IMG/VR virus record: IMGVR_UViG_3300000232_000393
Coordinates: 1-41,927 of that record
DNA from: a virus
Reading direction: 5' to 3' (one strand)
DNA length: 41,927 nucleotides
Shown here: positions 1,340 to 41,927 of the stretch, piece after piece
Numbering within the stretch: the first letter of the stretch is position 1
Layout: every line of letters begins with the position of its first letter
Notes under the pieces: generated by a model
Seen by the model: the letters and a program-made list of their open reading frames with translations, nothing else
The model's database searches: none
What the model was told of the DNA's origin: nothing
Position numbers and translations under genes: made by a program

Positions 1340-2947
1340 TTACGCCAATATCTCTCGCAACTCAATCCCACTTCTGAAAACAAAGGTTGCTTCAACCAGT
1401 GAATGAATAATCACTTTTTCAACCAATCTTCTAAACAGAGCTCCATCAAATTTTGAAAGGGGAGTGTCTGTTGAATGTAGGTATTTTCGCATTTCATCAA
1501 TTCTGCTTTGCTTTAGTCTCTGTGAAAGCTCAGCCTCCTCTATTATTGCTTTACGTTCACGTATTTGCTCCATTTCCTCTGATACCCTCATATACTCAGC
1601 CTCATATGCAGAAGTGCCGGTGCCAGCTCTTACATTAAGTCTTACAAGCCCCATCATTTCTTGCCCCAGCTCGTCAAGCCTTACGTTGAGCTCTTCAATT
1701 GTAAATTCATGCTCCAAGTGCTCAATTCCAGCGTTGATATTTTCAAGTAGCTGTTGCAAAAATTCCTTCTCACCCCCAATAGCTCTATCCATAGCTCTAA
1801 CAAAGGCTTTTTCTAAATCTTTTTCCTTTATATCTTTAGCAGGGCAAGCTTCAAGTCCATTTAATGCTTTATTGGTGCATTTCCAAATATAGCTTTTATT
1901 CTTGCCTTGCCCCCAAGTATTACGCTGTAGCTTTGCTCCGCAGTTATAGCAGAAAAGCATACCTGAAAAGGGATACTTACAGCCATACTGATTTTTGCCA
2001 GTAGTTGAGTATCCACGAATTGAAGATCTCCTCTTAAACTCTGCTTGCACTGCTGCAAAATCCTCACTTGAGATAATTGGCGGATGGCTTTCAGATACAT
2101 AGTAGCTTTGAACTATACCGTTGTTTTTTACCCGCTTCTTAGTTAAAAAATCTACAGTATAGGTCTTTTGCAGCCTTGCATCACCCATATATTTTTCATT
2201 CTTTAGAATACCAATAATATTGCTTTCGTGCCACTTGGTATTGCCTGCACCATTTTTTAGTCCATTCTTAGTTAGCCCGTTTGCAATTTGCCTTGTGCTT
2301 TTACCCTCTAAAAACTCTCTATAAATTCGCCTTACAATTTCAGCCTGCTCCGGAACAATTATCAGCTCCTTATTTTCATCCTTTTCATAGCCTAAAAATC
2401 GCTTAGCGTTTACCACCACTTTCCCATTCTGAAAGCGATGCACGATACCCCACCTTGTGTTGTGGCTAAGAGCGAATGATTCTTCTTGTGCAAGGCTTGA
2501 AATTATCACAAGTAAAACCTCGCCCTTTGCATCAAGTGTATTTATATTTTCCTTTTCAAAATATACAGCAATATTATTTTCTTTAAGCAGCCTTATATAT
2601 TGAAGACAGTCAAGAGTATTTCGTGCAAAACGAGAAACTGATTTTGTAATAACCATATCAATTTTACCGCCAAGACACTCATCAATCATTTTATTAAATT
2701 GCTCACGCTTTTTCGTGCTTGTACCACTTATTCCTTCATCAGCGAATATTCCAGCATATTCCCACGCAGGATTGCTGGAAATTTGGGAAAGATAGTGTTC
2801 TCTTTGTGCCTCAAAAGAGCTAAGCTGTTCGTCCTCACTGGTTGAAACCCTGCAGTAAGCCGCAACCTTTAGCTTTGGCTGCTCGGTAAAGCCCTGCCTT
2901 ATGAATTTAGGTTTAGCAGGAATTACTTCAACATTTCTTACTGCCAT
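1340..2947 (-). CDS. Large serine recombinase, third gene of the operon
   Basis: 535 aa. Resolvase-type catalytic domain at residues 27-170 with YCRVS (catalytic Ser35) and SVSRFARNT (arginines 106 and 109), then recombinase domain, a C4 zinc ribbon (Cys 334, 337, 358, 369) and a coiled-coil-rich C-terminus, all typical of phage integrases of the large serine type. Start ATG with AGGTGGGG upstream. It overlaps the end of the preceding recombinase-like gene by 20 bp, so the two are translationally coupled. It is the last gene before the XRE-SMEK cassette, consistent with a location next to an attachment site. Likely catalyses prophage integration and excision, possibly together with its two neighbours. 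Confidence 0.93.
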   Translation of the reverse strand: MAVRNVEVIPAKPKFIRQGFTEQPKLKVAAYCRVSTSEDEQLSSFEAQREHYLSQISSNPAWEYAGIFADEGISGTSTKKREQFNKMIDECLGGKIDMVITKSVSRFARNTLDCLQYIRLLKENNIAVYFEKENINTLDAKGEVLLVIISSLAQEESFALSHNTRWGIVHRFQNGKVVVNAKRFLGYEKDENKELIIVPEQAEIVRRIYREFLEGKSTRQIANGLTKNGLKNGAGNTKWHESNIIGILKNEKYMGDARLQKTYTVDFLTKKRVKNNGIVQSYYVSESHPPIISSEDFAAVQAEFKRRSSIRGYSTTGKNQYGCKYPFSGMLFCYNCGAKLQRNTWGQGKNKSYIWKCTNKALNGLEACPAKDIKEKDLEKAFVRAMDRAIGGEKEFLQQLLENINAGIEHLEHEFTIEELNVRLDELGQEMMGLVRLNVRAGTGTSAYEAEYMRVSEEMEQIRERKAIIEEAELSQRLKQSRIDEMRKYLHSTDTPLSKFDGALFRRLVEKVIIHSLVEATFVFRSGIELREILA

Positions 2948-3878
2948 TTTTTATCCCCACCTTTCGCTCGTATTGTTTATATACCTTGTAACCATTTAAA
3001 AACTCAAAACAAAGCATACCGTCTTCGTTAACTGTTACCTTTTCAATAACCCCTCGAAAGAAATCGGCATCAAAGCCTTTATCCATCAAATTCTTATCAG
3101 CAAGTATACGCTTTATTTTGCCTGTCTGATAATCAAAATCATCAATATAGGCTCTTTCATACTGTAAGTATGCTCGCCTTGCTATAAGCTCGCTTATATA
3201 TTCTTTGTTTTGTAATGCTTTTTTTGGTGATAAAAGCAGCTCTGAAATTTCATTGTCAATAGCTTTAATATCTGTATTAATCATTTGCTGTTCAGCTGGC
3301 TTTTTAAAAAGTGGCTTTAAATCCATTGCAAGCTGGTGTAGGACTCCTACAAAAATATCTTCTACATCGGTTTCATACATATTAGGTCGAGCAGTTTCGT
3401 TTTCCTTATGCTCTGAAAAATTTCTGCATTTCCATTGTGTCGCATATATATTATTTTTCATTCTGACCTGAAACCTATAAAATGTGCTGCCGCAGGTTTC
3501 ACAAAACAGCTTGGCACTAAAAGCAAATAGTGGCTCACGATATTCATAATCATCATTTTTGTAACGCTTATAATGTACTGCTTTTGCTCCTCTAACCTCC
3601 GCAGCTTTATCAAAGGTCTCTTGTGAAATCATTGCTGGATAGAAGTCATCACCTAAATAAACCTTGTTTTGCAGTAGCTTACCTATTGTCGGGTGTTTCC
3701 ATGAAACTCTGCCATTTCCGTTTTTATAGCCTGCATCTTGAAAATGCCTTGCTATATTAAACTGGCTATCTCCGTTACAATAAGCATCAAAAGCGTAATG
3801 TACCATTTTATCTTCGCCATCGTGTATTGCCGCCTTTCCATCCTTGATTTCATATCCTAATGGAATTGTACGCTGCAT
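2928..3878 (-). CDS. Recombinase-like protein lacking the catalytic domain
   Basis: 316 aa from the ATG at 3878, which has AGGAGAG 7 nt upstream and sits 1 nt after the stop of the preceding recombinase; an earlier in-frame Met at 3935 is inside that gene and less likely. The protein begins directly at the recombinase DNA-binding domain (PLGYEIKDGKAAI onwards), continues to a zinc-ribbon-like region (Cys 126, 129, 151; the fourth Cys is not obvious) and a C-terminal helical part. The N-terminal resolvase domain with its serine is absent, although the frame and ribosome binding site are intact. It therefore looks like a natural non-catalytic paralogue, perhaps a DNA-binding partner of the flanking recombinases, rather than a pseudogene. 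Confidence 0.85.
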   Translation of the reverse strand: MQRTIPLGYEIKDGKAAIHDGEDKMVHYAFDAYCNGDSQFNIARHFQDAGYKNGNGRVSWKHPTIGKLLQNKVYLGDDFYPAMISQETFDKAAEVRGAKAVHYKRYKNDDYEYREPLFAFSAKLFCETCGSTFYRFQVRMKNNIYATQWKCRNFSEHKENETARPNMYETDVEDIFVGVLHQLAMDLKPLFKKPAEQQMINTDIKAIDNEISELLLSPKKALQNKEYISELIARRAYLQYERAYIDDFDYQTGKIKRILADKNLMDKGFDADFFRGVIEKVTVNEDGMLCFEFLNGYKVYKQYERKVGIKNGSKKC

Positions 3879-3879
3879 A

Positions 3880-5487
3880 TCATCTCTCCTCTCTAAAAAC
3901 CTCAATTTTAAACTCAAGACCGTTGTATAAAACAAAGCCTATTGTAGACCGTTTATAATAAATAAACTTCTCAACCATTCGGTCAAAAAGCTCCTCGTTA
4001 AAACTATCTATAATGCCACCCTTTTCTCGGAGTATTGCAATAAGCTGCTCAGTGGAGCTAACTGAATTGTTGCTGCTTAAGATTTGATTATTAATGCTGT
4101 TGTACCTTTGCCTGACAATTTCCAATTCCTTGATTATTTTATCGTCCTGAACAGCAAACATTACATTATCAATATATCCTTTTGCTTGAAGCTGTAATAA
4201 CACTCGCTCCTCTTCCATAAGATCCTTAATTCTATTTTCCAAAGTTGAAAGCGTTGAATTTTCATGGGTATGCGACAGCAGCTTCTTTGTATCCTTTGCA
4301 AAGGGTGTTAGTATTTGCTCATAGTTGCAATAAAGCGTGTTGAATAGCTTTATAAACGCCAAATGCACCTTTTCCTCTACTATGCCAGTGGTACTACATT
4401 CCGTACCGTCTTTATAATGAGCACAATACCACAGAATGTGTTTTTTGTAGCTATTGGCTCCGGATATTTTTCTAGTAAGCCTGCATCCACATTCACCGCA
4501 GAACGCTTTACTAGAAAACACATAGCGATTATTATATTTGTTGATGTCATTCATATCTATGCCATACTGCTTCCGCCTTTGGGTAAGTACCGCCTGTGCT
4601 TTTCCAAAAAGCTCTCTTGAAATAATTGCAGGGTGGTGGTCTTTTACATAATACTGTGGTGCTTCCCCATAATTTTTCTTTCTTTTAAAGCTACCATCCT
4701 CTGTCGTGTAATGCTTACCAATCAAAAAATCACCTATATACTTTTCATTGGTGATAATTGATTTCACGCCACAAACACTCCACTTAGATTTTCCTGCAGC
4801 AGTTTTAATACCGTTTTCCATAAGCTCTGCCGCTATTAGTCCATGGCTTTTTCCATTTACATAGCTGTCGAAAATAAAGCTAATTGTTTTTGCCTCCTCT
4901 GGAACAATTACAAGCTCTTTTTTGTCATTGTATTCAAAGCCTAACAGCTTACTTCCAAGCCTCATCGGCTTACCCTCACGAGCCCTTTTTTGATGTGACC
5001 ATTTTAAGTTTTGTGAAATCGAATTTGATTCCTCTGCTGCAATTGAACTAAGAATAGTTAAAACAAGCTCGCTTTCTGCTGACATTGTATTAATATTTTC
5101 TTTTTCAAACTGAACTGAAATGCCAAGAGCCTTTAGCTTTCTAACGGTCTCAATACAATCGGTTGTATTCCTTGCAAAACGAGAAATTGATTTAGTAATA
5201 ATCATATCAATTTGCATTTGCTCGCAATCGCTTATAAGCCTTAAAAACTCACTTCGCTTGTCTTTGCTTGTGCCGCTTATCCCTTCATCAGCATAAATAC
5301 CGACAAGCTCCCACTCGGGATTAGAAGTTATGCTCTGGGTATAATGTTCCTTTTGAGCTTCATAAGAGCTGATTTGTTCAAGACTCGATGTACTCACCCT
5401 GCAATAAGCAGCAACTCTTATTTTGTTTTTTCTAACGCCATTCTCATCAAATTGTTTTACTGCTTCAATAGTTGTAACTGTTTTCAC
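3880..5487 (-). CDS. Large serine recombinase, first gene of the operon
   Basis: 535 aa, GTG start with AAGGAGG 7 nt upstream. Catalytic domain with YCRVS (Ser32) and ISRFARNT (arginines 103 and 106), recombinase domain, C4 zinc ribbon (Cys 330, 333, 355, 364), and a coiled-coil C-terminal region. It shares the architecture of the 1340-2947 product but differs clearly in sequence, so it is an ancient paralogue rather than a recent copy. It heads a three-gene operon. A terminator and a candidate promoter lie directly upstream, separating it from the lysis genes. Family role: site-specific integration and excision at short att sites. Confidence 0.93.
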   Translation of the reverse strand: MKTVTTIEAVKQFDENGVRKNKIRVAAYCRVSTSSLEQISSYEAQKEHYTQSITSNPEWELVGIYADEGISGTSKDKRSEFLRLISDCEQMQIDMIITKSISRFARNTTDCIETVRKLKALGISVQFEKENINTMSAESELVLTILSSIAAEESNSISQNLKWSHQKRAREGKPMRLGSKLLGFEYNDKKELVIVPEEAKTISFIFDSYVNGKSHGLIAAELMENGIKTAAGKSKWSVCGVKSIITNEKYIGDFLIGKHYTTEDGSFKRKKNYGEAPQYYVKDHHPAIISRELFGKAQAVLTQRRKQYGIDMNDINKYNNRYVFSSKAFCGECGCRLTRKISGANSYKKHILWYCAHYKDGTECSTTGIVEEKVHLAFIKLFNTLYCNYEQILTPFAKDTKKLLSHTHENSTLSTLENRIKDLMEEERVLLQLQAKGYIDNVMFAVQDDKIIKELEIVRQRYNSINNQILSSNNSVSSTEQLIAILREKGGIIDSFNEELFDRMVEKFIYYKRSTIGFVLYNGLEFKIEVFREER

Positions 5488-23986: not shown

Positions 23987-25243
23987 TTATATCTGTACTT
24001 CTTTAAAAGGTGTTCTAATTCCTAAACGCAGTAACTCAATACCGTCACTATCTCCGTCTTTGCTTTCAATAAAGCGTTTTACAATAACATCACAATATTT
24101 AGGATCAAGCTCCATCATATTGCAGGATCTGCCTGTCTGCTCTGCTGCAATCAGTGTTGTTCCCGAGCCTCCGAATAAATCTAAAACAACATCTCCCGTA
24201 TGTGAGCTGTTCATTATTGATTTTGCAACAAGTAAAATAGGCTTCATCGTTGGATGCTCTACTGAAATTTTGGGTCTTGGAATATCCCACACATCACTTT
24301 GCTTTCTATCTGTCAAAGGACAAAGCCTTGTGCCATCAAGCCAGCCATACCATATTGGCTCAAACTGTGTATGATAATCCTTTCTTGATAATACCAAGCT
24401 GTCCTTTTTCCAGATAATTGTTGATGACCAGTGAAATCCAAGCTCACGCATGGCATTCATGAGGTTACCCCATTCCTGTCCTGACATAACGATATATGTC
24501 ATGCACCCAGTTTCTGAGACAGCCTTCATGCAGCTAAATGCTTGCAATAGAAAAGCACCGAAATCCTCGGTGCTCATTTTATCGTTTAATATTGTTCTTG
24601 GCTTCCAGCTTGGATGCTTTGTATCCGATCCGTAATCAACATTCCATGGTGGATCCGTAAATACCAGCCTCGTTTTTTTATTATCCATAAGCAGCTTCAC
24701 ATCATCAAGAGTTGTCCTATCGCCACACATAAGCCGGTGCTTGCCTAAAAGCCAAATATCACCCCGCTTGGTAATTGGCGTTTCAATTTCTGCAATAGCT
24801 TTGTCTGCATCAAAATCGTCCTCTTTCACATTGCCTGCGGTTTTATCCTTAAAAAGCTCATCTATTTCTGCCATATCAAAGCCTGTAAGTGAAACATCAA
24901 AGCCGTTGTCGCCAATATCCTTGAGTAGCTCACTAAGAAGTGGAATATCAAACTCGCCGCTTATTTTATTAAGAGCAATATTTAAAGCCTTTTCTTTTTG
25001 CTCATCAATATCTAAAACCACACAATCAATTTCATTGTATCCCAGTGCAGTTAAAACCTTATATCTCTGATGTCCGCCCACAATATTACCTGTGCGTTTG
25101 TTCCAGATAACCGGCTCCACATACCCGAACTCTTCAATGCTTCTTTTTAGCTTTTCATATTCAGCATCGCCGGGCTTTAGATTTTTGCGTGGGTTATATT
25201 TTGCAGCCTTAATTCTATCAACTGATATTTTTTGTATATCCAT
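23987..25243 (-). CDS. ParB-like/DNA adenine methyltransferase fusion
   Basis: 418 aa. Residues 1-130 form a ParB/sulfiredoxin-like domain (RSIEEFGYVEPVIWNKRTGNIVGGHQRYKV; GGHQR at 56-60). The rest is a beta-class methyltransferase: DPPW (197-200, motif IV) comes before LDLFGGSGTTLIAAE (motif I), as in m6A or m4C enzymes; DPPW is more usual for N6-adenine. It overlaps its paralogue by one base (TAATG) with GGAGGTGG upstream. No partner nuclease is present, so this is an orphan methyltransferase, probably protecting phage DNA or altering host regulation. Confidence 0.93.
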   Translation of the reverse strand: MDIQKISVDRIKAAKYNPRKNLKPGDAEYEKLKRSIEEFGYVEPVIWNKRTGNIVGGHQRYKVLTALGYNEIDCVVLDIDEQKEKALNIALNKISGEFDIPLLSELLKDIGDNGFDVSLTGFDMAEIDELFKDKTAGNVKEDDFDADKAIAEIETPITKRGDIWLLGKHRLMCGDRTTLDDVKLLMDNKKTRLVFTDPPWNVDYGSDTKHPSWKPRTILNDKMSTEDFGAFLLQAFSCMKAVSETGCMTYIVMSGQEWGNLMNAMRELGFHWSSTIIWKKDSLVLSRKDYHTQFEPIWYGWLDGTRLCPLTDRKQSDVWDIPRPKISVEHPTMKPILLVAKSIMNSSHTGDVVLDLFGGSGTTLIAAEQTGRSCNMMELDPKYCDVIVKRFIESKDGDSDGIELLRLGIRTPFKEVQI

Positions 25244-26547
25244 TAACCTTCCACCTCCATCTTAACAGCCTTTTCCCCAGTAAACTCCTCCCACCGTCTA
25301 ACAGCTAAATCGCAGTAAACAGGGGATAGCTCCATTGCATAACAGTATCTTTCCGTTTGCTCGCAAGCAATAATTGTAGTGCCGCTCCCACTAAAAGGCT
25401 CCAGCACTATGCCGCCTCTATCACTGTGCATCTTTACGCATCGCCAAGGAAGCTCTACCGGAAACATTGCAGGATGCTCCTTATTAGCACGAACAGTTGT
25501 CATCTCCCATATTCCTGCATAGCCCCATTTTTTTCGTTCCTCTTTGGTAAGCCTTTTTACAAACTTAAAGCTGTGCCCTGCAAAAGCTGAAAGCCATATA
25601 TAATCTTGGTCGTTATATTCCTCAACTTCACCGTTTTTGCTGAAGGCTGAGATATATTCATATTGTTGGACGGGTTTATTGCTCACCAAATGATAGGGTC
25701 CAACGCCAAAGTTCATCCCTTGCTTTTTCCAAATGCGTATCCAAATAGGGCGAAAGTCACTATCTGCAAACATTTGCACAGAATAAAAACCAGTTGGCTC
25801 AATAAACTGTGAGCCAGTGCAATAAAGGTCAATCATCTGCCAGCAGATAACATCAGCGTGTTTGCAAATATTCATTATTACTGGCTTCATGGTTTGAAAC
25901 CAAGGCTCAATACCTGCTTTTTCATATTCCTTGCCGACTCCATAGGGTGGGGAAGTGACTGCACATTGTGCATGGCGGTTATCCATTAGCCTTTCAAAAT
26001 CCTCTGCCGATGTTGAATCTCCACACATGAGACGATGATTTCCCAAAAGCCATATGTCACCTTTTTGAGTAATTGTGCCGTTTGCTTCAATTTCCTCTTT
26101 TGCTTTATCAACATCAAACTCATCCTGCACAGCTTCTTTTGAGTAAAACCTATTCATAAGCTCATCAACCTCTGCTGCATCAAAGCCTGTAAGAGATACA
26201 TCAAAGGCACCAGCATCTAAGTCTGCCATAAGACTAGCCAATTTATCCTCATCCCACTCACCTTGAATTTTGTTAAGAGCAATATTTAAGGCTTTTTCCT
26301 TTTGCAAATCGAGCTCAACCACAACACAATCAATTTCTGTATGTCCCAAATCAAGCATTACCTTTAATCTCTGATGACCGCCCACAACATTGCCAGTGCT
26401 TTTATTCCAAATAACTAGCTCAACATAACCAAACTCTGCTATACTGCGTTTTAGCTTCTCGTATTGCTTGTCACCAGGCTGTAAATCTTTTCTTGGATTA
26501 TATTCTGCTGGGTTTAATAGCTCTGCCTTTATTTTTTGTATATCCAA
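25243..26547 (-). CDS. ParB-like/DNA methyltransferase fusion with TSPPY motif
   Basis: 434 aa from a TTG at 26547 with AAGG 8 nt upstream, 3 nt after the preceding small gene. The ParB domain (GGHQR 56-60) is highly similar to the next gene's, position for position over ~190 residues, then the catalytic parts diverge. Motif IV is TSPPY (198-202), typical of N4-cytosine methyltransferases, and EPFSGSGTTIIACEQ is motif I. So this is a duplicated pair with different target bases. The likely roles are the same as for its twin. Confidence 0.92.
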   Translation of the reverse strand: MDIQKIKAELLNPAEYNPRKDLQPGDKQYEKLKRSIAEFGYVELVIWNKSTGNVVGGHQRLKVMLDLGHTEIDCVVVELDLQKEKALNIALNKIQGEWDEDKLASLMADLDAGAFDVSLTGFDAAEVDELMNRFYSKEAVQDEFDVDKAKEEIEANGTITQKGDIWLLGNHRLMCGDSTSAEDFERLMDNRHAQCAVTSPPYGVGKEYEKAGIEPWFQTMKPVIMNICKHADVICWQMIDLYCTGSQFIEPTGFYSVQMFADSDFRPIWIRIWKKQGMNFGVGPYHLVSNKPVQQYEYISAFSKNGEVEEYNDQDYIWLSAFAGHSFKFVKRLTKEERKKWGYAGIWEMTTVRANKEHPAMFPVELPWRCVKMHSDRGGIVLEPFSGSGTTIIACEQTERYCYAMELSPVYCDLAVRRWEEFTGEKAVKMEVEG

Positions 26548-38644: not shown

Positions 38645-38671
38645 ATACGCATTTTACGCCATTTTGCGTAA
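38645..38671. promoter_or_regulatory. 27-bp operator, copy 1 (downstream of early promoter)
   Basis: Dyad ATACGCA...TGCGTAA with central TTTTACGCCATTT. One of three near-identical 27-bp sites. It lies at about +8 to +34 of the predicted early promoter start. Confidence 0.8.
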
Positions 38672-38726: not shown

Positions 38727-38753
38727 TTACGCATTTTTTGCCTTTTTGCGTGA
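38727..38753. promoter_or_regulatory. 27-bp operator, copy 2 (upstream of early promoter)
   Basis: TTACGCA...TGCGTGA with central TTTTTGCCTTTT; the most diverged of the three copies. Lies at about -49 to -75 of the predicted early start. Confidence 0.75.
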
Positions 38754-38766
38754 CTTAAGGCAAATT

Positions 38767-39588
38767 TTATAACAGTGTGTGTTGAGACTGCTGTTCTTCA
38801 AATGATTTTATATCAATAATAAACCCGAATTTTTTTAGTTTTATAAGGGCTGCCTGTCTAGAAACACCATAAACTTCTGATATCCTCCTCGGAAGTCGTT
38901 GGTTTGCAAACCAATCAGTTTCTATATCTGTTCCTGTTACAATACTGTCTCCACAAATGCCTGCAGATTTAAGTGCACCTTTAACAAAAGGTATAAATGT
39001 TGATTTAGGCATTGCAATAGCCGAGGCAAAATAGTCAGCATGATGTTCTCGCCAATCTTCTGCAGTTCTAAAACCGCCGATATTTCCAAAGTTTTCAATA
39101 TTTTCCTTGCGGCAGCAAATTACAGGTCTTGTAGCTAAAGACTCAAACAAGGAAAGCTGTCCTTTTGCACGATTATATACTCCAGGATGCATCCAAAGGT
39201 GACCACCTTCATGCAATGCTGTGAATAGTGCAAGTCCCTCTTTTCCTTTCTCCATAATACTGTTATCCAATATTATGGTTCTGTTATTTATGGGTATATC
39301 GCTTGCACACATATTTTCCCTATCAAATATTTTTAAAATCTCATCATTAAAAGCAGTCGCACCTAGAATTGGTCTTTCATCCACACCATAAAAAATATCG
39401 TGGAATTCGAGAGTAGCACCTAAATATGATTCAAGAAAATGCAGATAGTTAATTTGAGCTGGTTCTTTAAGCAGATTAGGTTTATAATCGCTTAAAATAA
39501 GTTCTGCTAAATCATCTATCTCTTTATCCTTTAAAATTGGCGTATTGTTATTTTTTCTATCAACTTTGCTGCAACGAAATTCTATCAA
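38767..39588 (-). CDS. ImmA/IrrE-type metallopeptidase
   Basis: 273 aa, TTG start overlapping the repressor stop (TTGA). HEGGH zinc motif at 126-130 in LFTALHEGGHLWMHPG, with later conserved TAEDWREHHADYFASAIAMP. C-terminal YGVSRQAALIKLKKFG resembles a helix-turn-helix. In phage and ICE systems the enzyme cleaves its partner repressor on a damage signal, triggering induction. The partner here is the XRE protein encoded directly upstream. Confidence 0.93.
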   Translation of the reverse strand: MIEFRCSKVDRKNNNTPILKDKEIDDLAELILSDYKPNLLKEPAQINYLHFLESYLGATLEFHDIFYGVDERPILGATAFNDEILKIFDRENMCASDIPINNRTIILDNSIMEKGKEGLALFTALHEGGHLWMHPGVYNRAKGQLSLFESLATRPVICCRKENIENFGNIGGFRTAEDWREHHADYFASAIAMPKSTFIPFVKGALKSAGICGDSIVTGTDIETDWFANQRLPRRISEVYGVSRQAALIKLKKFGFIIDIKSFEEQQSQHTLL

Positions 39589-39983
39589 GTATCCTCACCT
39601 CGTTTTTCTTCCATTTCTTGAATAAACTTTTTCCAATCTTCTTCGCTGATTTTTCCAGCGGTTGATTGCCTTAGGGCAAACCTTGCCATTTTCCCAATTT
39701 CGCCATACATCATAATATCCTCTAAATCTGAGGGGATTTCGCCACGGTCGAGTCCTGCCAAATCGTACATTGTAGCTTTATCTTCGTCAGACAAATTAAG
39801 TTCAGTGACAAAGATTTCAATTTTATCAGAATCGAAAGCCTTTCTACGATTGTTTTCAATGTCACTTAACAAGCTAAGAGATATCCCTAATCTTTCAGAC
39901 ATGTCCTTCAAGGTTATTTCTCTGGGATCGCTTAGACGTTTGTTTTTGATAAAGTCTCCAAATCTCATATTTTTATCTTTCAT
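39585..39983 (-). CDS. XRE-type phage repressor
   Basis: 132 aa, AAGGAGG 9 nt upstream. N-terminal helix-turn-helix (FGDFIKNKRLSDPREITLKDMSERLGISLSLLSDIENNRRK), C-terminal domain with YDLAGLDRGEIPSDLEDIMMYGEIGKMARFALRQ..., the form that pairs with ImmA proteases. Operator copy 3 overlaps its own promoter, so autorepression is expected. It is a clear paralogue of the XRE protein at the right edge (shared LSD(E/D)D, YDLAG and DWxxFI). Confidence 0.92.
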   Translation of the reverse strand: MKDKNMRFGDFIKNKRLSDPREITLKDMSERLGISLSLLSDIENNRRKAFDSDKIEIFVTELNLSDEDKATMYDLAGLDRGEIPSDLEDIMMYGEIGKMARFALRQSTAGKISEEDWKKFIQEMEEKRGEDT

Positions 39984-39997
39984 AACTCAATGCCTCC

Positions 39998-40024
39998 TTA
40001 CGCATTTTACGCCTTATTGCGTAA
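39998..40024. promoter_or_regulatory. 27-bp operator, copy 3 (repressor promoter)
   Basis: Perfect dyad TTACGCA...TGCGTAA around TTTTACGCCTTAT. It covers about -7 to +20 of the repressor promoter and touches its ribosome binding site. Confidence 0.85.
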
Positions 40025-40052
40025 TTGTAACATTTTTATTTCCCCATGTCAA
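40024..40052 (-). promoter_or_regulatory. Repressor promoter
   Basis: Consensus sigma-A promoter on the minus strand: TTGACA (40047-40052), 17-bp spacer, TACAAT (40024-40029) with an extended TG at -14. Start near 40017, inside operator copy 3. Confidence 0.85.
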
Positions 40053-40079: not shown

Positions 40080-40116
40080 CAAATAAATAATCTACTTGCT
40101 TCTAAATCAGCAAGAA
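40080..40116 (-). terminator. Weak terminator after the ASCH gene
   Basis: CTTGCT pairs with AGCAAG (40109-40114 and 40095-40100), followed on the minus strand by an A/T tract rich in T. A short stem and diffuse T run make this uncertain. Confidence 0.4.
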
Positions 40117-40124
40117 TAAAATGT

Positions 40125-40493
40125 TTATAGATATACAAATGATTGCGGAGCACATTTGACACCTAGTTCAGAAAGCAGCATAGGTTTATTATATTTTTTG
40201 ACTTTTCCTAATCGGTAAGCAACGGCTTTTTCTTTACCTTGATAATATTGATCATAAAATAATTTACTTATTCCAGCTAGTCCTGAGGCTAACTCCCAAA
40301 CGATATCCAAGTGATCTTCGATGATTTCTAGCACCTCTGCTTCACCAACAATACGCATAATAGGGGATGTTGCATATATTACTATTTTATCCACGTCAGC
40401 TTTACAGCGAACTCTTCGGAATTCAAATTGCTTTTCACCACTTAAAATATTATCCACGTGTTGTGGATTAATCGATAATAACATTTTGCACAT
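40125..40493 (-). CDS. ASCH (PUA-like) domain protein
   Basis: 122 aa. LLSINPQHVDNILSGEKQFEFRRVRC, IVIYATSPIMRIVGEAEVLEI and the final CAPQSFVYL match the ASCH family, PUA-like beta barrels that bind RNA or modified bases. It overlaps the end of the GNAT gene by 26 bp, which signals translational coupling. As the third gene of an XRE-led accessory operon it may sense or bind the target of the acetyltransferase. No catalytic claim can be made. Confidence 0.85.
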   Translation of the reverse strand: MCKMLLSINPQHVDNILSGEKQFEFRRVRCKADVDKIVIYATSPIMRIVGEAEVLEIIEDHLDIVWELASGLAGISKLFYDQYYQGKEKAVAYRLGKVKKYNKPMLLSELGVKCAPQSFVYL

Positions 40494-41538
40494 TTACATC
40501 ACCCATTTCTAGAATTTTTAAAAACTCCACTTTGCTATAATCAATGTTATAAGGGTGAGAGGGGAATAGACTATTATCAGATAACTCTTTATGGGTTACA
40601 TTATGCCCCTTGCCAAAAAATCCGTTATAGACCATCTCAATCATTATAACATTAGCACTTTCATTATAAATCTTTGTTAATTCATCTGCAGTAAACACTG
40701 TCTTATTACCAGCATTTTTAATAAAATCAATTAAACTTACTACCGTTGCTCCTCTATTTTTTATGACGTCAATTTTTGTAATGGTGCAGTACGACGTAAT
40801 AACTGACTTATATGTTTTTTGACCCACACCTTGAAAAATTCGATATATTCCTACCGGTTCACCGACATTATAATGAATAGAAGTATACGGAGCACCTATA
40901 TATACTTTTGTGATTCCATTGCCAGCGGTTTCTTCCTCCATCTCACGCCCATTACCTTTTAACTCTGAATAAGGAAATAGTCGATCGTGAAAACAGTCAA
41001 ACACTGGGATGACACCCGCCTTGTTAAAGGCAGGATTAATAAATGGGAATGCTCGATATGGATCTGAATAATCAATATTACTCCGACTTTTTATGTAAAC
41101 ACACTCTCCACGTTTGTTTTTACCTTTACATGAAAATCCAAACCGCACAAACAAGTTGATTAACTCAGTGTGTCTTTCAAATACCGTAACATATATATCA
41201 TTAACCTGACTTTCTTGCCAACGCCATAAAGAAACACCTAGTGCACCTTCACCGAGGCGTTTACCACGAAAACGTTCAGCAAGACGAAGCGTACCTATTT
41301 TTAGCCGGGGTATCGCTTGCAAAACTTCGGTTATTAATTCAATTGGCTCATTTTCAAACTTCAGATAAACAAAAGAACCTACACCTTGTTCATCGTAGAA
41401 TACAAGAGCACTTTCACCCTCGGTACTTTTTCTTGCAAACCAATTTGGGAATTCTTCGTAATCGTTTTTTAAAGAATCAAAGAAAGAATCCCTCAGATCT
41501 ACATCCGAAAATTTACACCATTGAAATTTCCCAGCCAT
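40468..41538 (-). CDS. GNAT acetyltransferase with C-terminal PUA-like domain
   Basis: 356 aa from ATG at 41538 with GGAGG 7 nt upstream; an upstream Met at 41562 is less well placed. GNAT acetyl-CoA loop RFRGKRLGEGALG (89-101) and VTVFERHTELINLFVRFGF (motif B) lie in the N-terminal half. The C-terminal half (from ~175) contains IGAPYTSIHYNVGEPVGIYRIFQGVGQKTYKSVITSYCTITKI, beta-rich and resembling an EVE/ASCH-type PUA domain. A protein with both parts is a good candidate for RNA- or tRNA-directed acetylation. Next to an ASCH gene; substrate unknown. Confidence 0.8.
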   Translation of the reverse strand: MAGKFQWCKFSDVDLRDSFFDSLKNDYEEFPNWFARKSTEGESALVFYDEQGVGSFVYLKFENEPIELITEVLQAIPRLKIGTLRLAERFRGKRLGEGALGVSLWRWQESQVNDIYVTVFERHTELINLFVRFGFSCKGKNKRGECVYIKSRSNIDYSDPYRAFPFINPAFNKAGVIPVFDCFHDRLFPYSELKGNGREMEEETAGNGITKVYIGAPYTSIHYNVGEPVGIYRIFQGVGQKTYKSVITSYCTITKIDVIKNRGATVVSLIDFIKNAGNKTVFTADELTKIYNESANVIMIEMVYNGFFGKGHNVTHKELSDNSLFPSHPYNIDYSKVEFLKILEMGDVNVQNVIID

Positions 41539-41558
41539 TATACTACCTCCATTCAAAA

Positions 41559-41927
41559 TCACTTATTTTCAAGCACCGCAATAAACTGTTGCCAATCCTT
41601 CACGGTTGCTTTATTCTTCGCTTTTCTTATTGCCATCCTAACAATATCAGTTGACATTACATATCCTGCAATATCTGGAGGTACACATCCTTTGTTTTGT
41701 CCTGCCAAATCATAGTATAATGGAAGATCATCATCTGATAATTTCAAAACATCCACCAACTTTGCTAATAGCTCCCCACCAGTTGGTGGATATCTGCGGT
41801 TCTTTTCAATATCACAAATATAGACAGTAGTAACACCCAACGCATCCGCAACTTGTTTTTGCGTGATACCTTGGGTCTTTCTTTTATTATAAATAAATGC
41901 ACCAAATGTCATAATTTGTTCACTCAT
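41559..41927 (-). CDS. XRE regulator of the GNAT-ASCH operon
   Basis: 122 aa. The start codon CAT (ATG on the minus strand) is the last three bases of the window, so its ribosome binding site and promoter are not visible. Helix-turn-helix GITQKQVADALGVTTVYICDIEKNRRYPP, then LSDDDLPLYYDLAGQNKGCVPPDIAGYVMSTDIVRMAIRKAK as in ImmA-paired repressors. No protease gene follows. The GNAT gene starts 20 nt after its stop. Paralogue of the phage repressor 39585-39983. Confidence 0.9.
   Translation of the reverse strand: MSEQIMTFGAFIYNKRKTQGITQKQVADALGVTTVYICDIEKNRRYPPTGGELLAKLVDVLKLSDDDLPLYYDLAGQNKGCVPPDIAGYVMSTDIVRMAIRKAKNKATVKDWQQFIAVLENK

Follow-up and report, generated by a model that had tools for sequence, protein, structure and literature searches.

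A GevT-GevA pair (GNAT-EVE and ASCH), a probable toxin-antitoxin module, behind an XRE gene in a temperate phage

The stretch of DNA analysed here (the window) is a complete virus record of 41,927 bases. It holds a siphophage-like prophage, which encodes portal, terminase and tape measure proteins and comes from a Gram-positive host, probably a clostridial one. All frames except small chance ones lie on the minus strand. Serine recombinases stand at one end of the prophage and the repressor region at the opposite end, where the gene order is XRE, GNAT-EVE, ASCH and then a repressor with an ImmA/IrrE-type peptidase (Table 1). The record terminates precisely at the XRE start codon, the prophage having probably been cut at a gene border, and since it stops there, the sequence upstream of XRE, promoter included, lies outside our view. 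Elsewhere in the window, tandem large serine recombinase-like genes occupy 1340-5487, the first an integrase/invertase by PHROGs, and two adjoining genes with similar starts (23987-25243 and 25243-26547), an apparent diverged tandem duplication, encode N-termini resembling ParB / DNA methylase fusions.

Table 1. Genes and predicted signals at the repressor end of the prophage (window coordinates)
Feature	Position	Strand	Evidence and remarks
XRE-family regulator, 122 aa	41559..41927	-	HTH_3 1.7e-8; record ends at XRE ATG
GevT homologue, GNAT + EVE/PUA-like	40468..41538	-	PDC-M11A 1.3e-69; phrog_6345 4.3e-68; model
GevA homologue, ASCH, 122 aa	40125..40493	-	PDC-M11B 2.4e-41; model; profile match 5GUQ/5GUS 1e-20
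Terminator-like hairpin 3' of GevA	40095..40114	-	consensus scan; weak, candidate
Promoter-like TTGACA-17-TACAAT before prophage repressor	40024..40052	-	11/12 consensus bases, TG-extended
Probable repressor operator TTACGCA-N12-TGCGTA	39998..40023	.	26-nt repeat family, copies 81-88% alike
Prophage repressor (XRE), neighbour outside GevTA	39585..39983	-	36% identical to window XRE
ImmA/IrrE-type (M78) peptidase of repressor module, neighbour	38767..39588	-	Peptidase_M78 5.3e-7

We call the GNAT-EVE and ASCH proteins GevT and GevA after their homologues directly behind cI in Escherichia phage PhiR47_2, which the GenBank record (PV340567.1) labels "GevT toxin" and "GevA antitoxin". The first-pass annotation had described an overlapping, A/T-rich operon of XRE, GNAT and ASCH genes beside the repressor, carried by the phage and of GNAT toxin type with two PUA-superfamily domains. 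The three genes, their identities, that general description and the place beside the repressor all stand. The overlap holds for GevT and GevA, whose frames share 26 nt, and depends for XRE and GevT on where GevT starts. A GGAGG precedes the candidate ATG at 41538 by 7 nt, and a start there agrees with close relatives (MAGKF...) and puts 20 nt between XRE and GevT; only with the alternative GTG at 41562 does an XRE-GevT overlap arise. The A/T-richness is modest (35-37% G+C in the three genes vs 40% in the whole window) and is not special to them, the adjoining repressor genes having 36%. Between the ASCH and repressor genes lie the hairpin, the promoter-like site and one copy of a 26-nt palindromic repeat (TTACGCA-N12-TGCGTAA), which suggests that XRE, GevT and GevA are transcribed as a separate unit upstream of that of the repressor. 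Further copies of the repeat are found at 38645-38670 and 38727-38752; two of the three precede early genes, and all are predicted, with reasonable probability, to be operators of the prophage repressor. A counterpart of this repressor gene also follows GevA at several of the relatives' loci, which we number with L (L014, L017, L141, L175-L177 and L179).

GevT matches the PDC-M11A model of PADLOC end to end (residues 13-362), as well as a PHROGs family. Its GNAT domain (residues ~1-155) is weak in Pfam (0.015) and clear by fold, with Z about 15 to many acetyltransferases, in a structure model of pLDDT 90.6 built from an alignment of 70 relatives. The C-terminal domain (~170-356), which had been proposed to be PUA-like, is supported as such and is of the EVE kind: Pfam EVE matches 9 of the 70 relatives and, at 3.8e-7 and above the curated cut-off, a 494-aa PIN-GNAT-EVE homologue, and residues 173-335 of the model have the same strand/helix order as the GevA model. 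Pfam gives no EVE match in the window GevT sequence by itself, and the fold search, which used the whole of GevT, returned GNAT chains throughout. Because the profiles of GevT and GevA, compared with each other, did not match meaningfully (3.5% probability), the EVE/ASCH likeness at the window locus is one of fold order only. Invariant residues K60, E62, K80, T83, Y116 and T118 are predicted active-site candidates. In the TacT/AtaT GNAT toxins, the catalytic residue is a Tyr four residues ahead of GF. The GevT residue four ahead of the conserved GF, a site placed by motif, is Phe, Leu, Ile, Val or Met in 70/70 and never Tyr, and the chemistry of GevT may thus differ from that of these toxins.

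A single-sequence GevT query retrieved no relatives from viral contigs, and sequence divergence made a mixed GevT alignment unusable for scanning; the GevA alignment and tighter subsets yielded them. Homologues occur in phages of E. coli, Salmonella, Lactobacillus and Lacticaseibacillus, in plasmids, and in Clostridia, Bacilli, Bacteroidota and Proteobacteria; in E. coli, 274 of 5426 genomes carry homologues near-identical to the PhiR47_2 pair. Among 99 representatives (80% identity) from several phyla, GevT and GevA overlap by 23-35 nt in most, and their identity matrices correlate with r = 0.79, the maximum of 1000 permutations being 0.14. The gene ahead of the pair is variable. On these comparisons of sequences and gene order, the unit kept by evolution is the GevT-GevA pair and not the trio.

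The dependence within the pair is one-sided. In phage contigs found by GevT seeding, GevA lies beside every testable intact GevT (48/48; 47 in tandem and one, L208, inverted), and seven further loci hold GevA together with a broken GevT. Seeding with GevA, which is biased to intact GevA, yields 25 loci with GevA and a broken or missing GevT. Among 391 evenly drawn Clostridia genomes, GevT is present in 10, accompanied by GevA in all except one at a contig end, and a clear GevA is present in 14. Of these, G069, G100 and G154 are without GevT, G306 also lacks GevT while its GevA contains an internal stop, and in G035 only half of GevT is left. All four genomes with GevT among 289 Alphaproteobacteria also have GevA. 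Apart from the one at a contig end, GevT is thus seen only with GevA in these sets, and GevA often without intact GevT, which is the direction expected if GevT is the toxin and GevA the antitoxin. GevT, three times the length of GevA, would more often be broken by chance; this explains some of the asymmetry but hardly the total lack of GevT without GevA.

Several loci deserve separate mention. The only rearranged pair (L208:6977-9035) has convergent GevT and GevA with an AAA_17-like gene between them, GevA being inverted. In Lactobacillus prophage Lj965 (L007:2289-4384), the pair directly follows four phage tRNA genes (Ser, Glu, Tyr, Phe), and three tRNA genes lie near it in L070; tRNA genes are found anywhere in only 8/60 loci, and we reject them as a general association. 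A second, different ASCH gene precedes PIN-GNAT-EVE or AAA_17-GevT operons in L105, L106, L111, L120 and L015 (Pfam ASCH 1e-10 in L105 and L015), giving two ASCH proteins per operon. Orphan GevA-like ASCH genes stand beside a C5-methylase and an NgoPII-type enzyme (L155:5175-7372; PDC-M11B 1.5e-45) and beside a HaeIII-type enzyme and a methylase-like gene (L158:7001-9255).

We read the locus as a GevT-GevA (PDC-M11; GNAT-EVE + ASCH) toxin-antitoxin pair of a temperate phage with XRE as a local regulator in front, at a probability of roughly 0.68. Its most likely role is that of a toxin-antitoxin or superinfection-defence module expressed in the lysogen; the toxicity of GevT, its substrate, the way it is neutralised and the control by XRE are inferred. 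A related possibility, compatible with the toxin-antitoxin reading and to which we give slightly less than even odds, is that the pair chiefly defends the lysogen against other phages by abortive infection rather than serving prophage addiction. PADLOC lists PDC-M11 as a phage-defence candidate, and the place of the pair behind cI in lambdoid phages fits expression in the lysogen, but addiction fits the prophage position equally well. Restriction-modification genes beside the relatives may point the same way as the PADLOC listing: HsdM adjoins the pair in L013, L017 has an N6/N4 methylase together with a SNF2/ResIII helicase, and the helicase is also present in L100, L141, L145 and L176.

The regulator is less closely tied to the pair than its position suggests. 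The window XRE is an ordinary HTH_3 protein and matches none of the PDC-M11 models of PADLOC. It is as similar to prophage repressors (36-42%, its own among them) as to the XREs compared from inside PIN-GNAT-EVE/ASCH operons (32-34%), and a tree with long branches places it neither as an operon XRE nor as a duplicated repressor. The first-pass annotation had treated the trio as the unit; our conservation survey points to the pair, with no XRE in front of GevT in the closest relatives (L094, L016, L098 and L136, with GevT 76%, 70%, 69% and 68% identical). Among 63 upstream or intervening proteins at the relatives' loci, AAA_17 accounts for 14 and HTH_3 for 12, several of the latter being ordinary phage CI/Cro repressors. 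A related XRE, 32-33% identical to that of the window where compared, does recur directly before GevA in ten clostridial loci (L105-L108, L111, L112, L115, L116, L120 and L122); at the loci inspected, the gene before it encodes PIN-GNAT-EVE. The order in L119 is GevT, AAA_17, XRE, GevA. Judged from these gene neighbourhoods, XRE is a recurrent accessory outside the conserved core, presumably a local regulator where it precedes the window pair. The ten clostridial loci, L119, the 20-nt spacing and the XRE-ASCH fusions of some Alphaproteobacteria (PMC7641849) speak for a true three-part toxin system that could not do without XRE, as regulator or as second antitoxin; the missing XRE in the nearest relatives, the 12/63 count and the equal nearness to prophage repressors speak against this, and we consider it unlikely. 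About equally doubtful is a fuller three-component scheme, in which the free XRE would replace the XRE-ASCH fusion, EVE would direct GNAT to a particular tRNA, and the ASCH antidote would perhaps shield the same modified base; were it true, orphan GevA genes would be anti-toxins against incoming GevT-bearing phages.

A different proposal is that GevT is no toxin and acetylates a DNA or RNA base against host restriction, with GevA reading or shielding that base. EVE and ASCH superfamily domains bind modified bases, orphan GevA-like genes adjoin restriction genes in L155 and L158, and base acetylation was proposed for these proteins by Iyer et al., as reported in PMC7641849, which itself suggests protection against host restriction-modification. 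A harmless modifier would, on the other hand, not be expected to persist only alongside GevA, and we regard this proposal as improbable.

GevA matches PDC-M11B over residues 3-122. Its ASCH domain is weak in Pfam (0.011), and its model (pLDDT 96) matches ZmASCH with Z 17.9 and YqfB with Z 9.7. All 78 aligned GevA proteins keep the ASCH signature G-x-K-x-x-E-x-R and the P-Q-S motif without change, along with Tyr40 and Ser118, which correspond to Tyr47 and Ser128 of ZmASCH; the position of ZmASCH Lys53 is Met in the window GevA and Lys in only 18/78. With Tyr47 and Ser128 matched and Lys53 unmatched, GevA is predicted as likely to bind RNA and may or may not cleave it. ZmASCH is a reported single-strand RNase (PMC5615036), an activity unexpected for a plain antitoxin, which counts against the toxin-antitoxin reading. 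YqfB, an ac4C amidohydrolase, uses the triad Lys21-Thr24-Glu74 together with Arg26. That GevA would undo the acetylation made by GevT, as YqfB acts on the acetyl group of ac4C, seems very improbable, for although the fold is common to both and Lys21 and Arg26 are kept at equal spacing in 78/78, the essential Thr24 nucleophile is Glu in 78/78 and the conserved Asp27 is Lys, Arg or Thr. Deacetylation by the YqfB mechanism is thus unlikely from the alignment, and this missing nucleophile, together with likely RNA binding, favours neutralisation by binding of GevT or shielding of its RNA.

For the GevT-GevA toxin-antitoxin pair, we propose the following. The lysogen would transcribe the pair from a point upstream of the XRE gene, and the overlapping frames would cause GevT and GevA to be made together. 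GevT would then acetylate an amine on an RNA, most plausibly a charged tRNA, that EVE recognises by a modified base, and translation would halt; charged or modified tRNA is the putative target according to the family literature. GevA, the second PUA-superfamily protein, would neutralise GevT, probably in the way favoured above and not by chemical reversal. Loss of GevA through prophage curing, or its shut-off by an infecting phage, would free the toxin and result in prophage retention, superinfection defence or both. This analysis adds a clostridial-type phage branch to the family. The one-sided dependence of GevT on GevA indicates which gene would be the toxin, and GevA as its antidote is unlikely to act as a deacetylase of the YqfB type. 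Should EVE select RNA by its modification, the choice of target by this toxin would hinge on modified bases.

The locus had been put forward as a candidate new system, which it is not, since PDC-M11 of PADLOC, the class described in PMC7641849 and GevT/GevA in PV340567.1 all cover it; it is a member of a kind already predicted and named. The GevT/GevA family has thus far a published prediction and database names, and the papers searched gave no account of its mechanism. First of all, the PhiR47_2 pair is like that of the window in both domain architectures, gene order, overlap and place behind a repressor gene, with GevT 32% identical over 97% of its length and GevA 44%. PhiR47_2 is a lambdoid coliphage with cI upstream, whereas in the window the XRE ahead of the pair is of another type and a second repressor unit (XRE-ImmA) follows downstream. 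Second, the A and B models of PDC-M11, a phage-defence candidate in PADLOC-DB 2.0.0, match both window proteins end to end, whereas the window XRE has no match among them. Third, Koonin's group predicted the GNAT-EVE and ASCH pair as a toxin-antitoxin family in 2020, describing (PIN)-GNAT-EVE + ASCH as a putative class whose PIN-less form is typical of prophages (PMC7641849). The window agrees with this in its GNAT-EVE without PIN, its ASCH neighbour and its prophage setting and differs in having a separate XRE in place of an XRE-ASCH fusion and, among the genes called in the window, no AAA_17 beside the pair, a neighbour that is frequent in the class but optional; the view ends at the XRE start. 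Fourth, the closest solved structure to GevA is ZmASCH of Zymomonas mobilis (PDB 5GUQ; Z 17.7-17.9, 30-31% identity), of which Tyr47, Gln127 and Ser128 are matched in the window protein, whereas Lys53, needed by ZmASCH for RNA binding and cleavage, is unmatched. Finally, toxins of the TacT/AtaT type have the GNAT fold in common with GevT, as well as the proposed action on charged tRNA. They are partnered by a toxin-binding antitoxin with an RHH (or HTH) domain, whereas the conserved partner of GevT is ASCH, the XRE upstream not being conserved; GevT also has an extra EVE domain and no Tyr four residues before GF.
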